Source of the DNA: Ruminococcus sp.
GTDB lineage: Bacteria; Bacillota_A; Clostridia; Oscillospirales; Ruminococcaceae
NCBI RefSeq assembly: GCF_024684275.1
Contig: NZ_JAIKXF010000061.1
Coordinates: 1-9,479, forward strand
Direction of reading: 5' to 3'
Length of the DNA: 9,479 bases
Both the position numbers and the translations under genes were made by a program. Under the pieces are notes generated by a model. The model searched no databases and was not told the origin of the DNA. It saw only the letters and a program-made list of their open reading frames with translations. This document shows positions 1 through 9,479 of the stretch, one piece after another. Numbering within the stretch: the first letter of the stretch is position 1; every line of letters starts with the position of its first letter.

Positions 1-183
1 CTCCTCCAGTATGATAATACTTGCAGGACACTCCTTGGCACATTTTCCGCAGCCTACGCACATCGTTTCATCAATGACTGCATTTATGCCGTGAGGTACA
101 CTTACAGCTCCCTTTGGGCAGACCTTTACACAGCAGCCGCAAGCCACGCACAGGCTTTTATCAATTACAGCTTTTCGTTTCAT
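1..183 (-). CDS. 2[4Fe-4S] dicluster ferredoxin, partial (C-terminal end outside window)
   Basis: Reading the minus strand from the ATG at 183-181 gives 61 residues beginning MKRKAVIDKSLCVACGCC, still open at the window edge. Two complete cluster-binding motifs are visible: C12-x2-C15-x2-C18-x3-C22-P and C42-x2-C45-x2-C48-x3-C52-P. This is the classic bacterial 8Fe-8S electron-carrier pattern, with an extra Cys17 inside the first motif. There is no signal peptide, so it should act in the cytoplasm as a low-potential electron carrier or as a small subunit or domain of an oxidoreductase. The start is fixed by an AGGAGG ribosome binding site about 7 bases upstream. Simple ferredoxins of this kind end near 56-65 residues, so it may be almost complete, but a longer protein with a ferredoxin N-terminus cannot be excluded. 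Its redox partner is not visible. Confidence 0.93.
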   Translation of the reverse strand, partial: MKRKAVIDKSLCVACGCCVKVCPKGAVSVPHGINAVIDETMCVGCGKCAKECPASIIILEE

Positions 184-188
184 GTAAT

Positions 189-196
189 CGCCTCCT
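189..196 (-). promoter_or_regulatory. Ribosome binding site of the ferredoxin gene
   Basis: On the minus strand CAGGAGGC lies about 7 bases before the ATG at 183. It is a near-perfect Shine-Dalgarno sequence and decides the ferredoxin start. Confidence 0.8.
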
Positions 197-213
197 GAGT
201 ATATTATATACTC
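197..213. repeat. 17-nt perfect palindrome directly upstream of the ferredoxin ribosome binding site
   Basis: GAGTATATtATATACTC has 8-base arms around a single central base and abuts the Shine-Dalgarno sequence of the ferredoxin gene. On the minus strand its middle contains TATAAT. That hexamer lies so close to the Shine-Dalgarno site that it is unlikely to be a normal -10 box for this gene. The palindrome could be an operator, or an RNA hairpin in the leader that limits ribosome access. It is AT-rich, so chance remains possible. Confidence 0.45.
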
Positions 214-229
214 TTTGTAGTTTTTGGTC

Positions 230-244
230 TGTGACAAAGTCACA
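230..244. promoter_or_regulatory. TGTGAC-AAA-GTCACA dyad upstream of the ferredoxin gene
   Basis: TGTGACAAAGTCACA is a perfect 15-nt dyad with 6-base arms and a 3-base centre. It resembles half-sites of CRP/FNR-family operators (TGTGA...TCACA) but with one base less between the halves. Its centre lies 32 bases, about three helical turns, from the centre of the palindrome at 197-213. It may be a transcription-factor site, or a short leader hairpin if the transcript begins further upstream. The regulator is not identified. Confidence 0.4.
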
Positions 245-290
245 TTAGAGGTAAATATACGAACAAGTTTATGAATTGCTCCAAAACGTT

Positions 291-482
291 TTAAAAGCAA
301 TATGCAAAAGCTCCTTTTCCGATGGAGTTTACAGTGTTAGGAATAACAACACTGATCATAGTTTCGCAATGTGAAAAAGCTCGGTCTCCGATCTCTGTTA
401 CGCCTCTTGGAATCTGAACATTTGCTTCATTTCCATTGTAGGACTCCAGAATATGACCTCTTATGATGAAATCTTCAAGCAT
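291..482 (-). CDS. Small BspA-type leucine-rich-repeat protein, 63 aa, probably truncated
   Basis: The product has no signal peptide. It begins MLEDFIIRGHILESYNGN and then carries about two BspA/LRR_5-type repeats: VQIPRGVTEIGDRAFSHC and VVIPNTVNSIGKGAFAYC. It stops directly after the Cys that normally closes a repeat. Full-length relatives usually carry many such repeats. The neighbouring LRR-dockerin protein has the same stretch (IPNSVNTIGDGAF) and continues with KNLKSV. The matching DNA, 319-345 here and 7551-7577 there, agrees at 22 of 27 bases. Past the stop, no reading frame resumes an LRR pattern before 183, so this is not a simple frameshift within what can be seen. The gene keeps a promoter (516-544) and a modest Shine-Dalgarno (AAAGGGTG). 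It is either a decayed 5' remnant or a real mini-LRR protein, possibly for protein-protein contact. No terminator separates it from the ferredoxin gene on the same strand. Confidence 0.6.
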   Translation of the reverse strand: MLEDFIIRGHILESYNGNEANVQIPRGVTEIGDRAFSHCETMISVVIPNTVNSIGKGAFAYCF

Positions 483-1267: not shown

Positions 1268-3436
1268 TTATTTTGCGAAGCTCAGCTCCTTGAAATCAGC
1301 ATAGCCGTTTGAATCATATGACTCAACATACATTCCTATTTTCGTTACACAGGCGATTTCTTCGTTGTATATGGAACATTCCTCAAGGAAATCGCTTAGA
1401 TTGTATTTGTTTTCAATACAGCATGAATCGCTATTTTTTATGGGATCATCCTTGCGATAGAAGTATAAGTTGCTTATCTTTCCTGCTCTATACTCCTTGT
1501 TCATATAATACTCAACGCCGTTTACAGTGACTGTTTCGTACTTCCCGCTGTCTATTGCTTCGCTGATGTAACTCTTAGCATAGCTGTTCCACTTAAAGCA
1601 TTCGTGTATCTCAAAGTCTATCCATTGGTTATCTTCCCGGAATGCTCCGCGGAGAAACACATCTATATCATTTGTTGAGTTTATATCAGCATAATAGTTG
1701 ATATCGAAGTCCTTGCAGTAATTTAATGAGTATTCGTCGTATTCAGCATAGCTTCCGCAGGTATAATCGGCTATTCTGTTCCATTCAGCAGTAAATGTGC
1801 CGTCCCTGCGTACTATGGTGCTGACGGCATCATCGTTTTGTCTGTGGGCTGAGACCTCCAACGTGCACTGATTATCTGTGTTGCGGAATATATTGTCGCC
1901 TGTCAGTAAAACTGCTTCATTCTCGGTAAGAGGTATCTCATCCGAAACGCCGAGCACGTACTTTGTCAGAAGCACAAGGTCACTTACATTTGTCTTGAAA
2001 TCGCCGTTTGCATCGCCGCTTTCCTCTATGATGTTATTGCCTGTTGACTTCAATACAGCCTTGCGGCATAACACAATATCAAAGCTGTTTATAGTACCGT
2101 CGCCGTTGAGGTCGCAGCGCTTCCCGGCTTCAAATGTCTGTATTGCCGTATCGTCTGCGGAACCGGCAGAGCTTATGAAGAAATCGTCGATAAAGAAATC
2201 AACGTTTGAATCAGCTTCAAATATGATCATGTATTTTCGGAAATTATCATGCTTGAAATCAAAGAACAGACCGCGTATGTTTGTCCATTGACCGGCTTTA
2301 CATATCCTTTTTCCAATATGATACGTTTTGTCCTGCGGCAATACTTCTTCATCATTGTATTCGTACAAATACACTTTAAAGGAAGTATCCTTATCTGCGT
2401 ATATCCTCGCTCCCGTCTGAAAACGGGCAGCAGTACCGTCTGAGGGAGCCGGAAGGTAATAAGGATCCAGCTCATAACAGAACGCTGATGATATATATTC
2501 GCCGCAGCATACGTTCAATGACTGCTCACCGCTGAAAAAAGCGTCTTTGGTGAGTTTGACCGTGTTTCCACTGTAGCAGCCGGCTTTGTCGTTTTCTGTC
2601 TCAAAATCCACCGTTATTATCCTTCCGTCCCTGCCGACAGGAAGAGGATCATGCCGCTCGTATGGTTCATGGATCTTGAATTTATCGAACAACTCCTCTG
2701 TAGCAGCGTCCATATTTGTATCCATTGAGATAAGCTTTGCGGAGCCGTTGGACTTGTACGCCTCAATTCCGAATTTCACATCATAAAGATATCCCACATC
2801 CAGTCCTGCGGAAGCCCATGCTTTGAAGTGCCCGCTCACATCTATAGTTCCCTCAAGATGATTTGTGGAATTGAGCTCAAGCGGGTCTCTGCGTGCAACG
2901 CTCCAATACATGGGGTAATTGTAGCCTCTGCCGTCAAAAGTCTGTCCAACATAAATGCTCCAGAAAAGATCGTAAGTAGTGTCGCCAATGATCACGCTGC
3001 CCAGTTTTTCAGCATTTTCTCCGGGCGGCTGCCATGATGCCCAGGCTTCAACAATATGAAATTTTGCCAATGCATTTGACATCCAGCCCTGAACCCCAAC
3101 ATATGCGATCCCGTCGGTATTTATATCAAGAGAGTAGTCGATAGAGTAATCCTTCACCTGATCAGCTTGTACCGTGTTTTTTTCAAAGCCATTTCCCTTC
3201 AGTGCCGTTGAATTGTGTATGTCGTTCCAACTAAAAGAAAAGCCGTTGTTGTCTGTGTTTTCATATTCAACATCGCCCTCGTAAAAAGCATTCCAAATCT
3301 CGTAAACGTAGTCATCAATTATACCCTTTATCAGCTGATCAGCAGCATTTGCAGTGAACAAGTTAAAGGCTGACACAACACAAAAACATACGACTGCTGT
3401 GAGTACAGATAACATTTTTGTCAGTGTTTTTTTCAT
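1268..3436 (-). CDS. Exported dockerin protein with degenerate GH11 xylanase module, CBM22-like module and second GH11-like module, 722 aa
   Basis: A Sec signal peptide (about 1-31, ending TANA|AD) precedes four modules. Residues 43-240 match the GH11 beta-jelly-roll pattern: IVEAWASWQPPG, YDLFW, MYWSV, HFKAWASAG, IEAYKSNGSA. The nucleophile position of the usual LxEYYIV motif is K125; the acid/base Glu is kept as E225. Residues about 272-423 look like a CBM22/CBM4-type carbohydrate-binding jelly roll (start ITVDFE, end DFFIDDFFIS). Residues 439-496 are a dockerin with loops D442/N444/D446/D453 and D475/N477/D479/D486. Residues about 505-722 resemble a second, more diverged GH11 fold (GTFTAEWNRI, KDFDINYYADIN, VESYDSNGYADF, E705). 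The dockerin should attach the protein to a cell-surface scaffoldin. The order follows R. flavefaciens GH11-CBM22-dockerin-X xylanases. The family suggests xylan as ligand; loss of hydrolysis is my inference. It is transcribed alone, between its own promoter and a terminator. Confidence 0.86.
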   Translation of the reverse strand: MKKTLTKMLSVLTAVVCFCVVSAFNLFTANAADQLIKGIIDDYVYEIWNAFYEGDVEYENTDNNGFSFSWNDIHNSTALKGNGFEKNTVQADQVKDYSIDYSLDINTDGIAYVGVQGWMSNALAKFHIVEAWASWQPPGENAEKLGSVIIGDTTYDLFWSIYVGQTFDGRGYNYPMYWSVARRDPLELNSTNHLEGTIDVSGHFKAWASAGLDVGYLYDVKFGIEAYKSNGSAKLISMDTNMDAATEELFDKFKIHEPYERHDPLPVGRDGRIITVDFETENDKAGCYSGNTVKLTKDAFFSGEQSLNVCCGEYISSAFCYELDPYYLPAPSDGTAARFQTGARIYADKDTSFKVYLYEYNDEEVLPQDKTYHIGKRICKAGQWTNIRGLFFDFKHDNFRKYMIIFEADSNVDFFIDDFFISSAGSADDTAIQTFEAGKRCDLNGDGTINSFDIVLCRKAVLKSTGNNIIEESGDANGDFKTNVSDLVLLTKYVLGVSDEIPLTENEAVLLTGDNIFRNTDNQCTLEVSAHRQNDDAVSTIVRRDGTFTAEWNRIADYTCGSYAEYDEYSLNYCKDFDINYYADINSTNDIDVFLRGAFREDNQWIDFEIHECFKWNSYAKSYISEAIDSGKYETVTVNGVEYYMNKEYRAGKISNLYFYRKDDPIKNSDSCCIENKYNLSDFLEECSIYNEEIACVTKIGMYVESYDSNGYADFKELSFAK

Positions 3437-3608: not shown

Positions 3609-6524
3609 TTATTGTATCTTGCTACCGCCCCATTCAACGACAGTAAAGCCGTTCCTTTCAAAGGTCGATAACTGCTGCGGTTCGATATCAATTGCTTCTT
3701 CCAATGGAACATACGTCATGAATACACGCAACATACTGTCAGGTGTAGGTGTGATGTTCAGTTTTGCGGAATTGGTATAGGCTTCGCTCTGGAAAGAAAT
3801 GAAATTATACTTGTTATGCTCCATAAGCGGCAGCCAGTATACGATGAACTCGTTCATTTCATCTTCGGTCAATCCCATAAATGTGAGCTTTTCCTTGAGG
3901 AAACTCTCTGTATCACTGCCGGCAACACAGAAGCCTTTGGAGAAATCGAATCTTGTACGGCAGTTTACTGCGTCCCAGAACAGATATCTGTGATGTGTAC
4001 CGTCAGCTTTGTTTACGATCCTTCCGTCAGGATATGCTGTTACGTCCCAGCCGTTATTATACTTGGGATAAGTTGTTGAGAGCTCAGCTTCCGTCAGTTC
4101 AAGTTCAACATGAACATCGGTTTCCTGCTCCGGATACAGGTATATTACAGGCTTTCTTGCAACTTGTTCAAAATAGATAGTCGGAGTTTTGCCGTCATCT
4201 TTAAATACTTTTATCCAGCCGTATTGACCGTTATATTCTGTAAACAGCCATTCGTTGTTATTGTTCTGAGCACCCTTTTCGATCAGGCGCGTATCCGCAG
4301 GAATGCATGCAATGGTGCTATATCTCTCATCCGGACCTTGATAAAGCTTAAGACCGTCTTCCAGAACAAAGAATGGAACACCGTACTCGAAACTCTCATC
4401 AGGATTAACATAATAGGAATACTTATCCTTCAGATCTCTGAGTTTTGTCGTGATACCCGGCGTTCTGTCTGAAACTGTCTTTATCTTAGAACCGTCTGAA
4501 TAGGTGAGTTCAAGTCTGAACTCGCATTCACTCCATTCAGGTCCGTCGGGATTATTCATGTTTTGCATCATACTGTCATAGTCCTGAGCCATTATCTCAC
4601 GATATTCCTGCTCTGATATCTGAATAACAATAGACTGAGGCTCCTGAGCATATGTCAGATCCTGATAAGACAGAAAATAGTTTTCGCCTTCACAGTATAC
4701 TTTATATATGATCATTGCACCTGCGACACCGCCAGATTCTGTGACACTGACCTCGACAGGCAGATCTATTGATTTAAGAAGTGCTTTTCTCATAAGAACA
4801 AGATCAAAGATCGTAAGCTTGTTATCCAGATCAAAGTCAGCTTCTGCCCAGTCGTAAAGCTCCTTATCGTATGCATTGAGCAGCCATTTCTGTAATGCTA
4901 CAAGATCAGCAATATTGAATTTACTGTCACCGTTTATATTACCTGAAGCTTTTATCTTGGTTCTTATCACAAGCTCCATTGATCCGTTGTCATATAATGT
5001 AACTTCGGGCTGATCATCGCACAGGAATTTAAAGATATCCGCGGATCTATATAGCTTTGCGAGATCGGTCTGATAGACCTGCGGATTGGAGTCTGCACAA
5101 TATACAGGGCCAGTGTACATCCAGCCGTCCGGAGACATATTTGATCTGAATCTTATATCCGTACCAAATCCAAGATTATGGTGTTCTGCCAGCTCACTCG
5201 GGATAAGCTCTCCTGTATCCTTGTCATAAAACGTTATCCTTGTTTCTCCCTTTTCAAGGTCGGTCAAATCAGCAGACTTTTCCTCGGGGAGTACCCTTTT
5301 AGACGTTTTTTTCAGCCTGAACACAACGTCAGCTGTGTTGTTGTCATATTTCTTTACGGTAATATGATCTTCAGGTACAATAGTTCCGTTGTAATAACCC
5401 GCAGATTTTTCTTCAGTCTCCGGCAGGGAGTAACTTTCAGGTATATCAAGCAAGCCGAAGGAGAAATTGTAACCATCAAAGAAGTTGCCTAAACCTACAA
5501 TGGCAGGGTTATTTCTGAATCCGACGGGCTGCATATTGCATTTTATCTCACCATCGGATGTACTTTGACGAATATCCGTCCATATTCTCGGCATTGCACC
5601 CTCAGGGAGAGTAAGCAGCTCGCCTGTGTCATAGTCAACAAGGGTTACTCTCATATCTTCCGAAAGCAGTATAGTCTGTGCATTATCAAGCACAGTACAG
5701 TCCGCAGTCAGTGTATATAATGTTGGCTCAGCTTTGGATGTACGTATCCATGATATCTTTTCATATCCGTCTTTCACTGCCTGATATACATATATCTTAT
5801 CAATTGAACCGTCATCATACAAATCCGGTACCTGCATAGTGCAGTCGGACGTCAAAAGATACTTTATGTTCTCATATTTGTTATTGTAGTCAGGCTCCAA
5901 TTTGTCACCAAGCTGATCCACTGCCATCGTACAGAACACAACATAATTGCCATTTACAGAAACATTACCGTTTTTCTTAGTATACTCATCATACTCAGTC
6001 ATGCTGTCTGGTAGCCATCTGAAGATATCGGTTTCGGTGATACAGAGGTTCTGGCCGACTGTAAAGTTATATTCAGCAATTGTTGGCGGTTCCCAATCGT
6101 CAGGAGTTTCTTTGACCTGTACATGAGGATCAACTATTGACAGATCAATATCGCCTTGTTTCTGCGGCTGATAGACAAACACATCAAAGCAGGTCTCAGT
6201 CAGCTCATGAGTGTAGATCTCATGTTTAAGTTCGAGCCCCATTCCTACAGTTGATTTCAGTTCATATCCGTATGTATCTGCACTGCGGCCCTTTCTCGCA
6301 CGATCAGGATATACTAAACAGATCAGACCATTGTCAATATGCGTAGCTCCATAGGAATTACGGAACTCTACAGCGGAATCAAAATCAGACGGGATCCAGT
6401 CCGGGAGTTTAGCAATAGCGCCTGTGTCCTCTGCATACGAAATAGATGCAGAAGCATTAAATGAAAGCGGCGTGATTGCAGTTGCAGCAGCGGCAATTGC
6501 AGCAGCTATCTTCTTGAGTTTCAT
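3609..6524 (-). CDS. Large exported dockerin protein with SH3-like and conserved C-terminal domain, 971 aa, function unknown
   Basis: The chosen start is the ATG at 6524 (MKLKKIAAAIAAAA). A GTG three codons earlier keeps the frame open, but its bases are part of the AGGTGA ribosome binding site. A signal peptide covers about 1-31. Modules in order: an N-terminal region about 41-265 (LPDWIPSDFDSAVEFRNSYG, then strand-rich sequence); two related repeats at about 292-406 and 428-524 (VTLVDYDTGELL / ITFYDKDTGELI, then TDIR, DG and PV landmarks); a dockerin at about 528-585 (loops N529/N531/D533/D540 and D563/D565/D567/D574); a region about 586-718 of unknown type; a bacterial SH3-like module about 719-775 (LKLYQGPDERYSTI ... 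YGWIKVF); and a C-terminal domain about 790-971 from KPVIYLYPEQETDV to GFTVVEWGG. The last resembles a conserved bacterial family I recall only as uncharacterised. The dockerin implies attachment to a cellulosome scaffold, and the SH3-like part may bind cell wall. No catalytic motif was recognised. It has its own promoter and terminator. Confidence 0.83.
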   Translation of the reverse strand: MKLKKIAAAIAAAATAITPLSFNASASISYAEDTGAIAKLPDWIPSDFDSAVEFRNSYGATHIDNGLICLVYPDRARKGRSADTYGYELKSTVGMGLELKHEIYTHELTETCFDVFVYQPQKQGDIDLSIVDPHVQVKETPDDWEPPTIAEYNFTVGQNLCITETDIFRWLPDSMTEYDEYTKKNGNVSVNGNYVVFCTMAVDQLGDKLEPDYNNKYENIKYLLTSDCTMQVPDLYDDGSIDKIYVYQAVKDGYEKISWIRTSKAEPTLYTLTADCTVLDNAQTILLSEDMRVTLVDYDTGELLTLPEGAMPRIWTDIRQSTSDGEIKCNMQPVGFRNNPAIVGLGNFFDGYNFSFGLLDIPESYSLPETEEKSAGYYNGTIVPEDHITVKKYDNNTADVVFRLKKTSKRVLPEEKSADLTDLEKGETRITFYDKDTGELIPSELAEHHNLGFGTDIRFRSNMSPDGWMYTGPVYCADSNPQVYQTDLAKLYRSADIFKFLCDDQPEVTLYDNGSMELVIRTKIKASGNINGDSKFNIADLVALQKWLLNAYDKELYDWAEADFDLDNKLTIFDLVLMRKALLKSIDLPVEVSVTESGGVAGAMIIYKVYCEGENYFLSYQDLTYAQEPQSIVIQISEQEYREIMAQDYDSMMQNMNNPDGPEWSECEFRLELTYSDGSKIKTVSDRTPGITTKLRDLKDKYSYYVNPDESFEYGVPFFVLEDGLKLYQGPDERYSTIACIPADTRLIEKGAQNNNNEWLFTEYNGQYGWIKVFKDDGKTPTIYFEQVARKPVIYLYPEQETDVHVELELTEAELSTTYPKYNNGWDVTAYPDGRIVNKADGTHHRYLFWDAVNCRTRFDFSKGFCVAGSDTESFLKEKLTFMGLTEDEMNEFIVYWLPLMEHNKYNFISFQSEAYTNSAKLNITPTPDSMLRVFMTYVPLEEAIDIEPQQLSTFERNGFTVVEWGGSKIQ

Positions 6525-6528
6525 AATA

Positions 6529-6535
6529 TTCACCT
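6529..6535 (-). promoter_or_regulatory. Ribosome binding site deciding the start of the 971-aa gene
   Basis: On the minus strand AGGTGAA lies 4 bases before the ATG at 6524 (AGGTGAATATTATG). The same bases contain the GTG at 6533-6531 that would give a start three codons earlier. No good Shine-Dalgarno serves that GTG, so the ATG is preferred. Confidence 0.65.
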
Positions 6536-6805: not shown

Positions 6806-7927
6806 TTATTTTTTCTTCATGTAATCAGTAAGGCTGACCGTACTCTTGTTTGTGGCTGTGTAAGCGTAATAAGCCAGAACATAAGAAGCATCAACAGCAT
6901 TGACAGCGCCGTCTTTGTTTATATCGCAGCATTCAAGATCATCACTTGAAGGTTTAGATTTATTCTGAGCATTCTTTGCATATATAGAAAGGATTTCTGA
7001 AGCGTCCACAGAGTTGATCTTACCGTCTGCAGTAGGATCTCCATATGTTGGTAAAGCGCTGAATTTAAAGCCGTATTTTTTTGCAACTGTTTCGGCTGTT
7101 GAGTTTTTATAGCCTTTGATTACGATTTTATCAGTGATTTTTACGGCTTCGTTTAAAGATTGAGGGGTAAAAGTTTCACCATCGTCGGATATACCATCAG
7201 TTAAAATGAATTCACATGTGGGATTTTTAAACGTAAGATATTTCATATTTTCACAGCCTACAATTGCAGAAAGATAGAATTTTGAAACGTTTTCCCCGCA
7301 TTCAAGGAATTCAAGTGAACTACACCGAGAAAAAGCATATTTTTTTATCGTTGTTACCGAAGGAGGTAATGTAATGTTTTTCAGATTAATACACCATGCA
7401 AAAGTGTGATTTTCTATTGTTGTTGGATTATTACGTAGCTCAATCGACTTGAGATTAAGACAACAAAAAAATGCGGCATAATCAATAGTTTTAACATTGT
7501 TTCCGATAGAAACACTTTTCAAGTTTTTACACTGATAAAAAGCACCATCGCCGATAGTATTTACGCTGTTAGGAATATTAATGCTTGTAATATTTTCACA
7601 TTCAAAAAACGCATGTCTGCCTATGTATCTGACTGGCAAACCATCTATGTTGTCAGGAATATCAATTTGACCTGAAGCATATTTATCGCATTTTGCAAGA
7701 GTCAGCTCTCTGTTAGTTGTTGTATATGTGATATTATTCTTTTCGTCAATTATTGTTGGGTCAATATCAAAAATGCTATTAGGTTCATCATCATTAGGAA
7801 TAATCATTTTTTCAGGTTCAGCATATGCAGTCGAAATTACATTATCTGATATATTCTGAGATATCGGCAATAAAGTGCCTGTTATAATAAATGCGAGAGA
7901 CATCGCAAAAAGCTTTTTCAGTTTCAT
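6806..7927 (-). CDS. Exported BspA-type leucine-rich-repeat protein with C-terminal dockerin, 373 aa
   Basis: A signal peptide (about 1-36, cleavage after TAYA) is followed by about six BspA/LRR_5 repeats between residues 88 and 235. These carry the IPNSVNTIGDGAFYQC pattern with a period near 23. A typical capping stretch follows (IVIKGYKNSTAETVAKKYGF, about 269-288). Residues about 296-356 are a dockerin with loops D297/T299/D301/D308 and D335/N337/D339/D346 and matching helices (VDASEILSIYA, VDASYVLAYYA). It should be secreted and docked on a cohesin, offering the LRR face for contact with protein or polysaccharide; the target is unknown. The dockerin helices differ from those of the two other dockerin proteins here, which have DLVLxxK-type helices, so it may use a different cohesin. 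AGGAGG lies 8 bases before the ATG. Promoter and terminator flank it closely, so it is monocistronic. Confidence 0.92.
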   Translation of the reverse strand: MKLKKLFAMSLAFIITGTLLPISQNISDNVISTAYAEPEKMIIPNDDEPNSIFDIDPTIIDEKNNITYTTTNRELTLAKCDKYASGQIDIPDNIDGLPVRYIGRHAFFECENITSINIPNSVNTIGDGAFYQCKNLKSVSIGNNVKTIDYAAFFCCLNLKSIELRNNPTTIENHTFAWCINLKNITLPPSVTTIKKYAFSRCSSLEFLECGENVSKFYLSAIVGCENMKYLTFKNPTCEFILTDGISDDGETFTPQSLNEAVKITDKIVIKGYKNSTAETVAKKYGFKFSALPTYGDPTADGKINSVDASEILSIYAKNAQNKSKPSSDDLECCDINKDGAVNAVDASYVLAYYAYTATNKSTVSLTDYMKKK

Positions 7928-8136: not shown

Positions 8137-8150
8137 CTCACTGCTGTGAG
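8137..8150 (+). repeat. Small hairpin or dyad in the hsdM leader
   Basis: CTCAC-tgct-GTGAG is a 5-4-5 inverted repeat just downstream of the promoter. It ends 5 bases before the GGAGG ribosome binding site at 8156-8160. It could be an operator at the transcript start or a leader hairpin that tempers translation of the methyltransferase. It is short, so confidence is low. Confidence 0.35.
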
Positions 8151-8155
8151 ATTTC

Positions 8156-8160
8156 GGAGG
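8156..8160 (+). promoter_or_regulatory. Ribosome binding site of hsdM
   Basis: GGAGG is followed by 6 bases and the ATG at 8167, which confirms that start. Confidence 0.75.
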
Positions 8161-8166
8161 AATACA

Positions 8167-9479
8167 ATGATAACAGGAGTCATTAAGAATAAAATTGACA
8201 AGATATGGACCGATATATGGGCTGGCGGTATCACCAATCCGCTTACCGTTATCGAGCAGCTCACATACCTTATGTTCATACGCTCCCTTGACGAGAAGGA
8301 GCTTGAAAACGAAGAATTTGCCAATATGACAGGCGAAACTGCCGACCTTATCTTCCCGCAGTCGGAGATAGGACAGGCTATGCGCTGGAGCAAGTTCAAG
8401 GACAGAGACTCCCGAGAGATCTTCGACCTCATTTCGCAGCGTGTTTTCCCTGCGGTGAAGAAGATGAAATACGGCAGGCTTCCCGAATTCGATGACAAGG
8501 GTGAGCTTATCGAGATACCTGACCGCGCTGACGAAGAGCAGGTTCAGACTGCTTTCTCACGCTACATGGACAGCGCTGTGTTCGTTATACCCAATCCGCA
8601 GGTGCTCCAAAAGATAATCACAGGTCTGGACGACCTCTACGAGCACGACATTGCCGACCTCGATATGCAGGGCGACCTCTACGAGTATATGCTGGGCAAG
8701 CTCAGCACAGCAGGTCAGAACGGTCAGTTCCGTACACCTAAACATATCCGTGAGATGATGGTGGAGCTGGTCGCACCGACTCCAGATGACCTTATATGCG
8801 ATCCTGCCTGCGGTACTGCCGGATTCCTCGTTTCTGCGGCTGAATATATCCGAAAGCACTATGAGGACACAATGACTGACGAGCAGTGGGCGGACTTCTC
8901 AAACAAGACCTTCACAGGCTATGACACAGACCACACTATGCTCCGTATCTCTGCCATGAACCTCATGCTGCACTCTATCACCAACCCCGACATCGACTAC
9001 AAGGACAGCGTTTCCAAGCAGAACAATGTCAGCGGCAAATATACCGTATGTCTGGCGAATCCGCCCTTCAAGGGCACTGTTGACGCCGAGAGCATCAACG
9101 ACAACCTCAAAGCAGTCACCAACACGAAAAAGACTGAGCTTCTCTTTCTTGCGCTGTTCCTGCGCCTGCTCCAGAAGGGCGGACGCTGTGCATGTATCGT
9201 TCCCGACGGCGTGCTTTTCGGCTCGTCAAAGGCTCACAAGTCTATCCGTCAGGAGCTTATCGAGAATCATCAGCTCAAAGCCGTTATCTCCATGCCCAGC
9301 GGCGTATTCAAGCCATATGCAGGCGTTTCCACGGCTGTGCTTGTGTTCGTGAAGACCGATGCAGGCGGCACGGATAATGTGTGGTTCTACGATATGAAGG
9401 CGGACGGCTTCTCCCTCGATGACAAGCGTTCGGAGATAGCCGAGAACGATATTCCCGATATTATTTCCCGTTTCCATAA
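8167..9479 (+). CDS. hsdM: Type I restriction-modification system DNA methyltransferase subunit HsdM, partial (3' end outside window)
   Basis: The frame stays open from the ATG at 8167 to the edge, giving 437 codons. Residues 1-170 fit the helical HsdM N-terminal domain (WAGGITNPLTVIEQLTYLMF). The N6-adenine methyltransferase domain follows, with GQFRTPKHI (186-194), the AdoMet motif DPACGTAGF (212-220) and the catalytic motif NPPF (298-301). Later conserved stretches include IVPDGVLF (344-351) and MPSGVF (376-381). HsdM normally pairs with HsdS to methylate adenines and with HsdR to cut unmodified DNA. HsdS and HsdR would be expected further right; they are not in the window. The start is set by GGAGG at 8156-8160, 6 bases upstream. 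The gene is clearly richer in GC than the others here. HsdM proteins are commonly around 500 residues, so it is probably near the end. It looks intact and active. Confidence 0.96.
   Translation, partial: MITGVIKNKIDKIWTDIWAGGITNPLTVIEQLTYLMFIRSLDEKELENEEFANMTGETADLIFPQSEIGQAMRWSKFKDRDSREIFDLISQRVFPAVKKMKYGRLPEFDDKGELIEIPDRADEEQVQTAFSRYMDSAVFVIPNPQVLQKIITGLDDLYEHDIADLDMQGDLYEYMLGKLSTAGQNGQFRTPKHIREMMVELVAPTPDDLICDPACGTAGFLVSAAEYIRKHYEDTMTDEQWADFSNKTFTGYDTDHTMLRISAMNLMLHSITNPDIDYKDSVSKQNNVSGKYTVCLANPPFKGTVDAESINDNLKAVTNTKKTELLFLALFLRLLQKGGRCACIVPDGVLFGSSKAHKSIRQELIENHQLKAVISMPSGVFKPYAGVSTAVLVFVKTDAGGTDNVWFYDMKADGFSLDDKRSEIAENDIPDIISRFH

Follow-up and report, generated by a model that had tools for sequence, protein, structure and literature searches.

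A dockerin-bearing GH11-fold protein of Ruminococcus and its conserved relatives with dismantled xylanase active sites

Introduction

What does a xylanase fold do in a cellulosomal protein when lysine occupies the place of its catalytic nucleophile? The question is raised by a 722-aa protein encoded in a 9,479-nucleotide stretch of Ruminococcus sp. DNA (the window), for which a sequence-only reading had suggested three roles, i.e., xylan binding, a decoy for xylanase inhibitors, or a changed chemistry. Retaining hydrolysis by the GH11 route needs a nucleophile carboxylate, and the accessible part of PMC8609826 describes GH11 members as endo-xylanases only. Here we analyse the protein, its relatives and the retention of active-site residues among them.

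Results

The protein combines a probable signal peptide, two GH11-fold modules, a CBM22-like module and a dockerin.

1268..3436, minus strand: gene of 722 aa with signal peptide, pseudo-GH11, CBM22-like module, dockerin and second pseudo-GH11
3344..3436, minus strand: probable signal peptide, residues 1-31, judged by eye from MKK, a hydrophobic stretch and ANA
2708..3331, minus strand: N-terminal GH11-fold module, residues 36-243, catalytically disarmed
3062..3064, minus strand: codon AAA of Lys125, nucleophile position according to alignments
2762..2764, minus strand: codon of Glu225, acid/base position (Glu here; E, D, S, G, Q or H in relatives)
2156..2671, minus strand: CBM22-like module, residues 256-427, without Pfam match
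1952..2113, minus strand: type I dockerin, residues 442-495 (PF00404, E 2.1e-09)
1271..1939, minus strand: C-terminal second GH11-fold module, residues 500-722, more decayed than the N module, without Pfam match
1616..1618, minus strand: codon of Asp607, nucleophile-equivalent in the second GH11 module
1322..1324, minus strand: codon of Glu705, acid/base-equivalent in the second GH11 module, not conserved in 20 rows

The type I dockerin is clear (Dockerin_1 PF00404, 37.9 bits against a Pfam cut-off of 22.9), and beyond the GH11-like, CBM22-like and dockerin parts no further catalytic module was found in the 722 residues. The sequence-only reading had recognised the first GH11-fold module and overlooked the second one and the CBM22-like module. 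Elsewhere in the window, positions 3609-6533 (minus strand) encode a 974-aa neighbour with dockerin-like and SH3-like regions below the Pfam cut-offs. Over its last 267 aa this neighbour shares 67% identity with the C-terminal end of the GH11-like protein L038, which is encoded one large ORF away from a paralogue of the 722-aa gene in R. flavefaciens Y1. A leucine-rich-repeat protein with a dockerin (6806-7927, minus strand) is encoded on the same strand as the 722-aa gene, so that the latter lines up with two further dockerin genes, a clear one and a weak one. The window also holds an HsdM-like N6 DNA methyltransferase cut by its end (8146-9477, plus strand) and an open frame with ferredoxin-type cysteine motifs CxxCxxCxxxCP, read by eye, occurring twice (1-300, minus strand).

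The N module has the GH11 jelly-roll fold, as indicated by its PF00457 profile score and by structural matches of the predicted model. Alignments confirmed that Lys125 occupies the nucleophile's place and that the acid/base Glu225 is kept, so the dyad positions read Lys125/Glu225 in place of two catalytic Glu. The other proposed losses, Tyr69 to Q116, Tyr80 to H127, Arg112 to Y162 and Gln127 to M176, were confirmed as well, and the thumb Pro116 is replaced by T166; all five we take to be -1 subsite residues of GH11. The protein thus differs from the GH11 endo-xylanases 1h4g, 1f5j and 4ixl in its nucleophile and in each of these residues, and its dyad is gone. With the nucleophile carboxylate absent, the window protein is not expected to carry out retaining hydrolysis of the GH11 type.

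The remaining carbohydrate modules are also altered. Residues 256-427 are related to CBM22 / CBM_4_9 by fold and by profile, the profile E-value being only ~1e-3, and the Pfam search gave no PF02018 match for them. The ligand contacts of CBM22 are presumably Trp53, Tyr103, Tyr134 and Glu138, of which Tyr134 is kept and the other three seem replaced in a weak alignment; compared with the CBM22 of XynY (1dyo/1h6x), the module would have lost most of these ligand residues, and xylan itself may not be its ligand. What lies between the two GH11 modules is a decayed CBM22-like module. The C module is related to GH11 by profile and fold, not by Pfam, and has Asp607/Glu705 at the dyad positions; none of 20 aligned C modules has E/E, and the position of Asp607 is filled by D, G, R, Y, H, N, E or T among them. 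Both GH11 modules have thus kept the jelly-roll fold and lost the retaining dyad; in the N module the thumb Pro and the greater part of the -1 subsite are gone as well.

A protein search returned 11 relatives, while a profile search returned 30 matches, of which 29 are true relatives after the dockerin-only match P0031 was dropped. Aligned with the window protein, these 29 give 30 proteins, and the nucleophile position reads K in 8 (the window protein included), L in 7, E in 5, R in 4, Q in 3, N in 2 and S in 1; both Glu occur in two of the 30. The hypothesis that Lys125 and E225 form a new active site, of Schiff-base or single-acid type, draws on the E or D found at the acid/base site in all 8 Lys rows of this alignment and on the structure search, in which the model matched the designed retro-aldolase RA61 variants 7f1k and 3b5l, built on a xylanase scaffold that carries a catalytic Lys. 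If the Lys were catalytic it should not vary; here, however, the close relative P0005 has N, the wider clade has L, R, Q, S or E, and the sister-branch Lys row L082 has His opposite. As the residue at the Lys125 position varies among relatives, the changed chemistry proposed earlier is disfavoured and in our judgement hardly plausible.

Matches at E <1e-75 were found in 14 of 125 genomes of the genus; 13 of them span most of the protein, and the one in G052 ends at residue 560. Among 396 genomes drawn from the family, a draw that held few of the genus, the only match at E 1e-70 or better was R. flavefaciens Y1. The named carriers are Y1, with two close copies, and MA2007.

Could these genes simply be decaying, or the substitutions be sequencing errors? 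In-frame stops do occur, i.e., a TAG that interrupts the GH11 module in the copy from MA2007 (L002:5335-5337) and a TGA in one sister-branch copy, and these would fit a pseudogene; 21 of 23 matches at E <1e-75 are nevertheless free of internal stops. Over nine pairs the NG86 dN/dS was 0.13-0.28 at full length and 0.13-0.22 in the N module, compared with 0.06-0.07 in four pairs of canonical GH11 modules, the nine pairs sharing sequences and thus not being independent, and dS being near saturation in one pair. The C module gave 0.42 and 0.45 in two pairs. Since dN/dS lies above that of the active paralogues, constraint appears relaxed, and by this measure the proteins are maintained by purifying selection that is weaker than on active enzymes. 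The relatives share the substitutions and their genes are under purifying selection, which upholds the earlier argument against a single sequencing error and makes such an error, like pseudogene decay, barely credible.

In a tree built without the trait columns, 44 clade rows split from 15 canonical rows (14 loci and 1f5j) with an SH-aLRT of 100, in a quick search with long branches. The incomplete P0009 and P0026 had been left out before the 67-row alignment, whose 52 non-canonical rows were reduced to 44 by dropping the fragments L002 and L080 and the identical or nearly identical P0001, P0007, P0013, P0016, P0021 and P0030. The nucleophile Glu is kept in 14 of the 44 rows (0.32), a count that allows for a 2-residue insert in one branch, and no row holds more than four of the seven tested active-site residues. 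Retention is 0 for Gln127, 0.07 for Pro116, 0.09 for Arg112, 0.20 for Tyr69, 0.32 for Glu78, 0.34 for Tyr80 and 0.48 for Glu172, whereas 66 other positions conserved in canonical enzymes have a median of 0.77; the difference has a Mann-Whitney p of 0.010 and is not significant in the cruder Fisher form (p 0.088), and in both tests neither positions nor rows are independent. As controls, both Glu were present in 14/14 canonical rows, hand-picked from loci at hand and several of them by a motif containing the nucleophile Glu; because of this choice we added 39 distinct domains scoring >=250 bits with a canonical GH11 profile, itself built from E/E seeds, and all 39 have both Glu. The sequences indicate that the loss runs through the clade and is not a random decay of everything.

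E/E is found in four of the 44 rows and E/D in four, and these rows, together with the intact GH11 fold, are consistent with a residual or altered glycoside hydrolase, some members being slow on xylan or using a different substrate. The window protein lacks the nucleophile carboxylate and the Tyr69, Tyr80, Arg112, Pro116 and Gln127 equivalents, and we rate such a hydrolase as very unlikely; going by their residues, the four rows with both Glu might retain some activity.

In the sister branch, ten tree rows have the nucleophile Glu in 8 cases and Q or H at the acid/base position in 7. Its members L032, L033, L057, L058, L059, L081 and L082 share the architecture, mostly with the nucleophile Glu and with Gln/His at the acid/base site; the Lys row L082 has His there. 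Y1 and MA2007 also encode proteins with tandem GH11-like stretches, three by Pfam in L034, L035 and L039, two in L036 and one each in L037 and L038. Most catalytic positions in these proteins are altered, although E/E is still aligned in the middle module of L034. A dockerin exceeds the cut-off only in L035, with weak ones in L036, L037 and L039, and L036 has relatives in 11/125 genus genomes. A GH11-CBM_4_9-dockerin protein at L030:1381-3312 carries a rhodanese-like domain at its end, which is an unusual companion in a cellulosomal protein.

Discussion

The intact GH11 fold, the dockerin and the -1 subsite dismantled across the family support the earlier designation of a cellulosomal pseudo-xylanase. 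Xylanases with the order GH11-CBM22-Doc-GH11(-CE) are on record in R. flavefaciens, i.e., FD-1 ORF01315 and its kin, and the accessible parts of the two sources (PMC2930009, PMC4081043) name GH11 modules, with neither "catalytic residue" nor "inactive" found in them. Module order and dockerin are alike in our protein, but all three of its carbohydrate modules are decayed. We consider it probable that it is a secreted, dockerin-bearing, non-hydrolytic relative of these multimodular xylanases, with glycan binding or targeting as its most likely function. The dockerin would plug the protein into a cohesin of the cellulosome or of the cell surface, and the pseudo-GH11 cleft, with its Trp9-equivalent platform kept, could work with the modules next to it to bind a plant cell-wall glycan that is left uncut, probably a hemicellulose such as xylan. 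The protein would thus act as an adhesin or targeting subunit, and Lys125 may occupy the disused nucleophile pocket as several other residues can, perhaps in a pair with E/D225. The sequence comparison makes it probable that the protein adheres to plant cell walls or has another task that involves no cutting; a xylan-binding module seems the likeliest of the three roles suggested earlier, and the ligand may be something other than plain xylan.

The glycan site could, on the other hand, be lost altogether and the modules serve as spacers or protein-protein interaction modules, the jelly roll being kept as a scaffold. Active-site residues and, apparently, the CBM22 ligand residues named above are replaced whereas many residues of the scaffold are preserved, which would fit this, as would the even more decayed C module. 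Against it, Trp48, which we take to be the equivalent of BcX Trp9 in the -2 subsite, is kept in 46 of 49 rows (only L002, L080 and P0001 dropped), a retention that could be structural, and no partner protein is known. Moreover, many R. flavefaciens dockerin proteins carry glycan-binding modules, as far as the accessible parts of PMC2930009 and PMC4081043 go. We regard a spacer or protein-binding function as rather unlikely, yet as the next most likely after glycan binding or targeting.

A decoy would draw off xylanase inhibitors of plant or microbial origin and so spare the active GH11 enzymes. A precedent is the oomycete glycosidase decoy reportedly described in Ma 2017, a GH12 protein said to keep its inhibitor surface, which is also a glycosidase-fold pseudoenzyme but of another family and organism. 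The Y1 and MA2007 genomes match PF00457 in 22 and 23 places at an E-value of 0.1 or better, and at least 26 of these 45 keep both Glu, which would likewise be compatible with a decoy. Xylanase inhibitors contact the GH11 thumb and cleft, and a decoy should keep these positions; as they are among the most changed ones, the decoy role put forward earlier is disfavoured and highly improbable.

CttA of R. flavefaciens is an adhesin, and glycan binding by the 722-aa protein would have a parallel there, likened by description only, as a cellulosomal protein without a listed catalytic module. CttA differs in using CBMs and an X-dockerin (CBM-CBM-X-Doc in the accessible part of PMC5301203). The available text of PMC10992016 places CBM75, 76, 78 and 80 of R. 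flavefaciens beside GH43, GH44 and GH5 modules. Glycosidase-family pseudoenzymes are already known, and as far as our searches go a conserved clade of dockerin proteins with GH11 pseudo-xylanase modules is a new form of them: no natural GH11 pseudoenzyme was found in the open-access literature searched, nor in the accessible part of PMC6549527.

It is conceivable, at somewhat less than even chances, that the GH11 jelly roll was recruited more than once in one Ruminococcus group as a non-catalytic glycan-recognition module. This would be a new natural binding-module family, present in pairs and tandem triplets on cellulosomal proteins, the newer R. flavefaciens CBM families being compared by description alone; it would supply the cellulosome with recognition subunits that have so far passed as xylanases or unknowns. 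PF00457 matches are easily counted as endo-xylanases, and since a conserved clade lacks the dyad, such counts overstate the xylanase content of R. flavefaciens-type genomes. The clade offers natural non-hydrolytic xylanase folds and a testable function for some dockerin proteins whose part in this exceptionally complex cellulosome is poorly understood.
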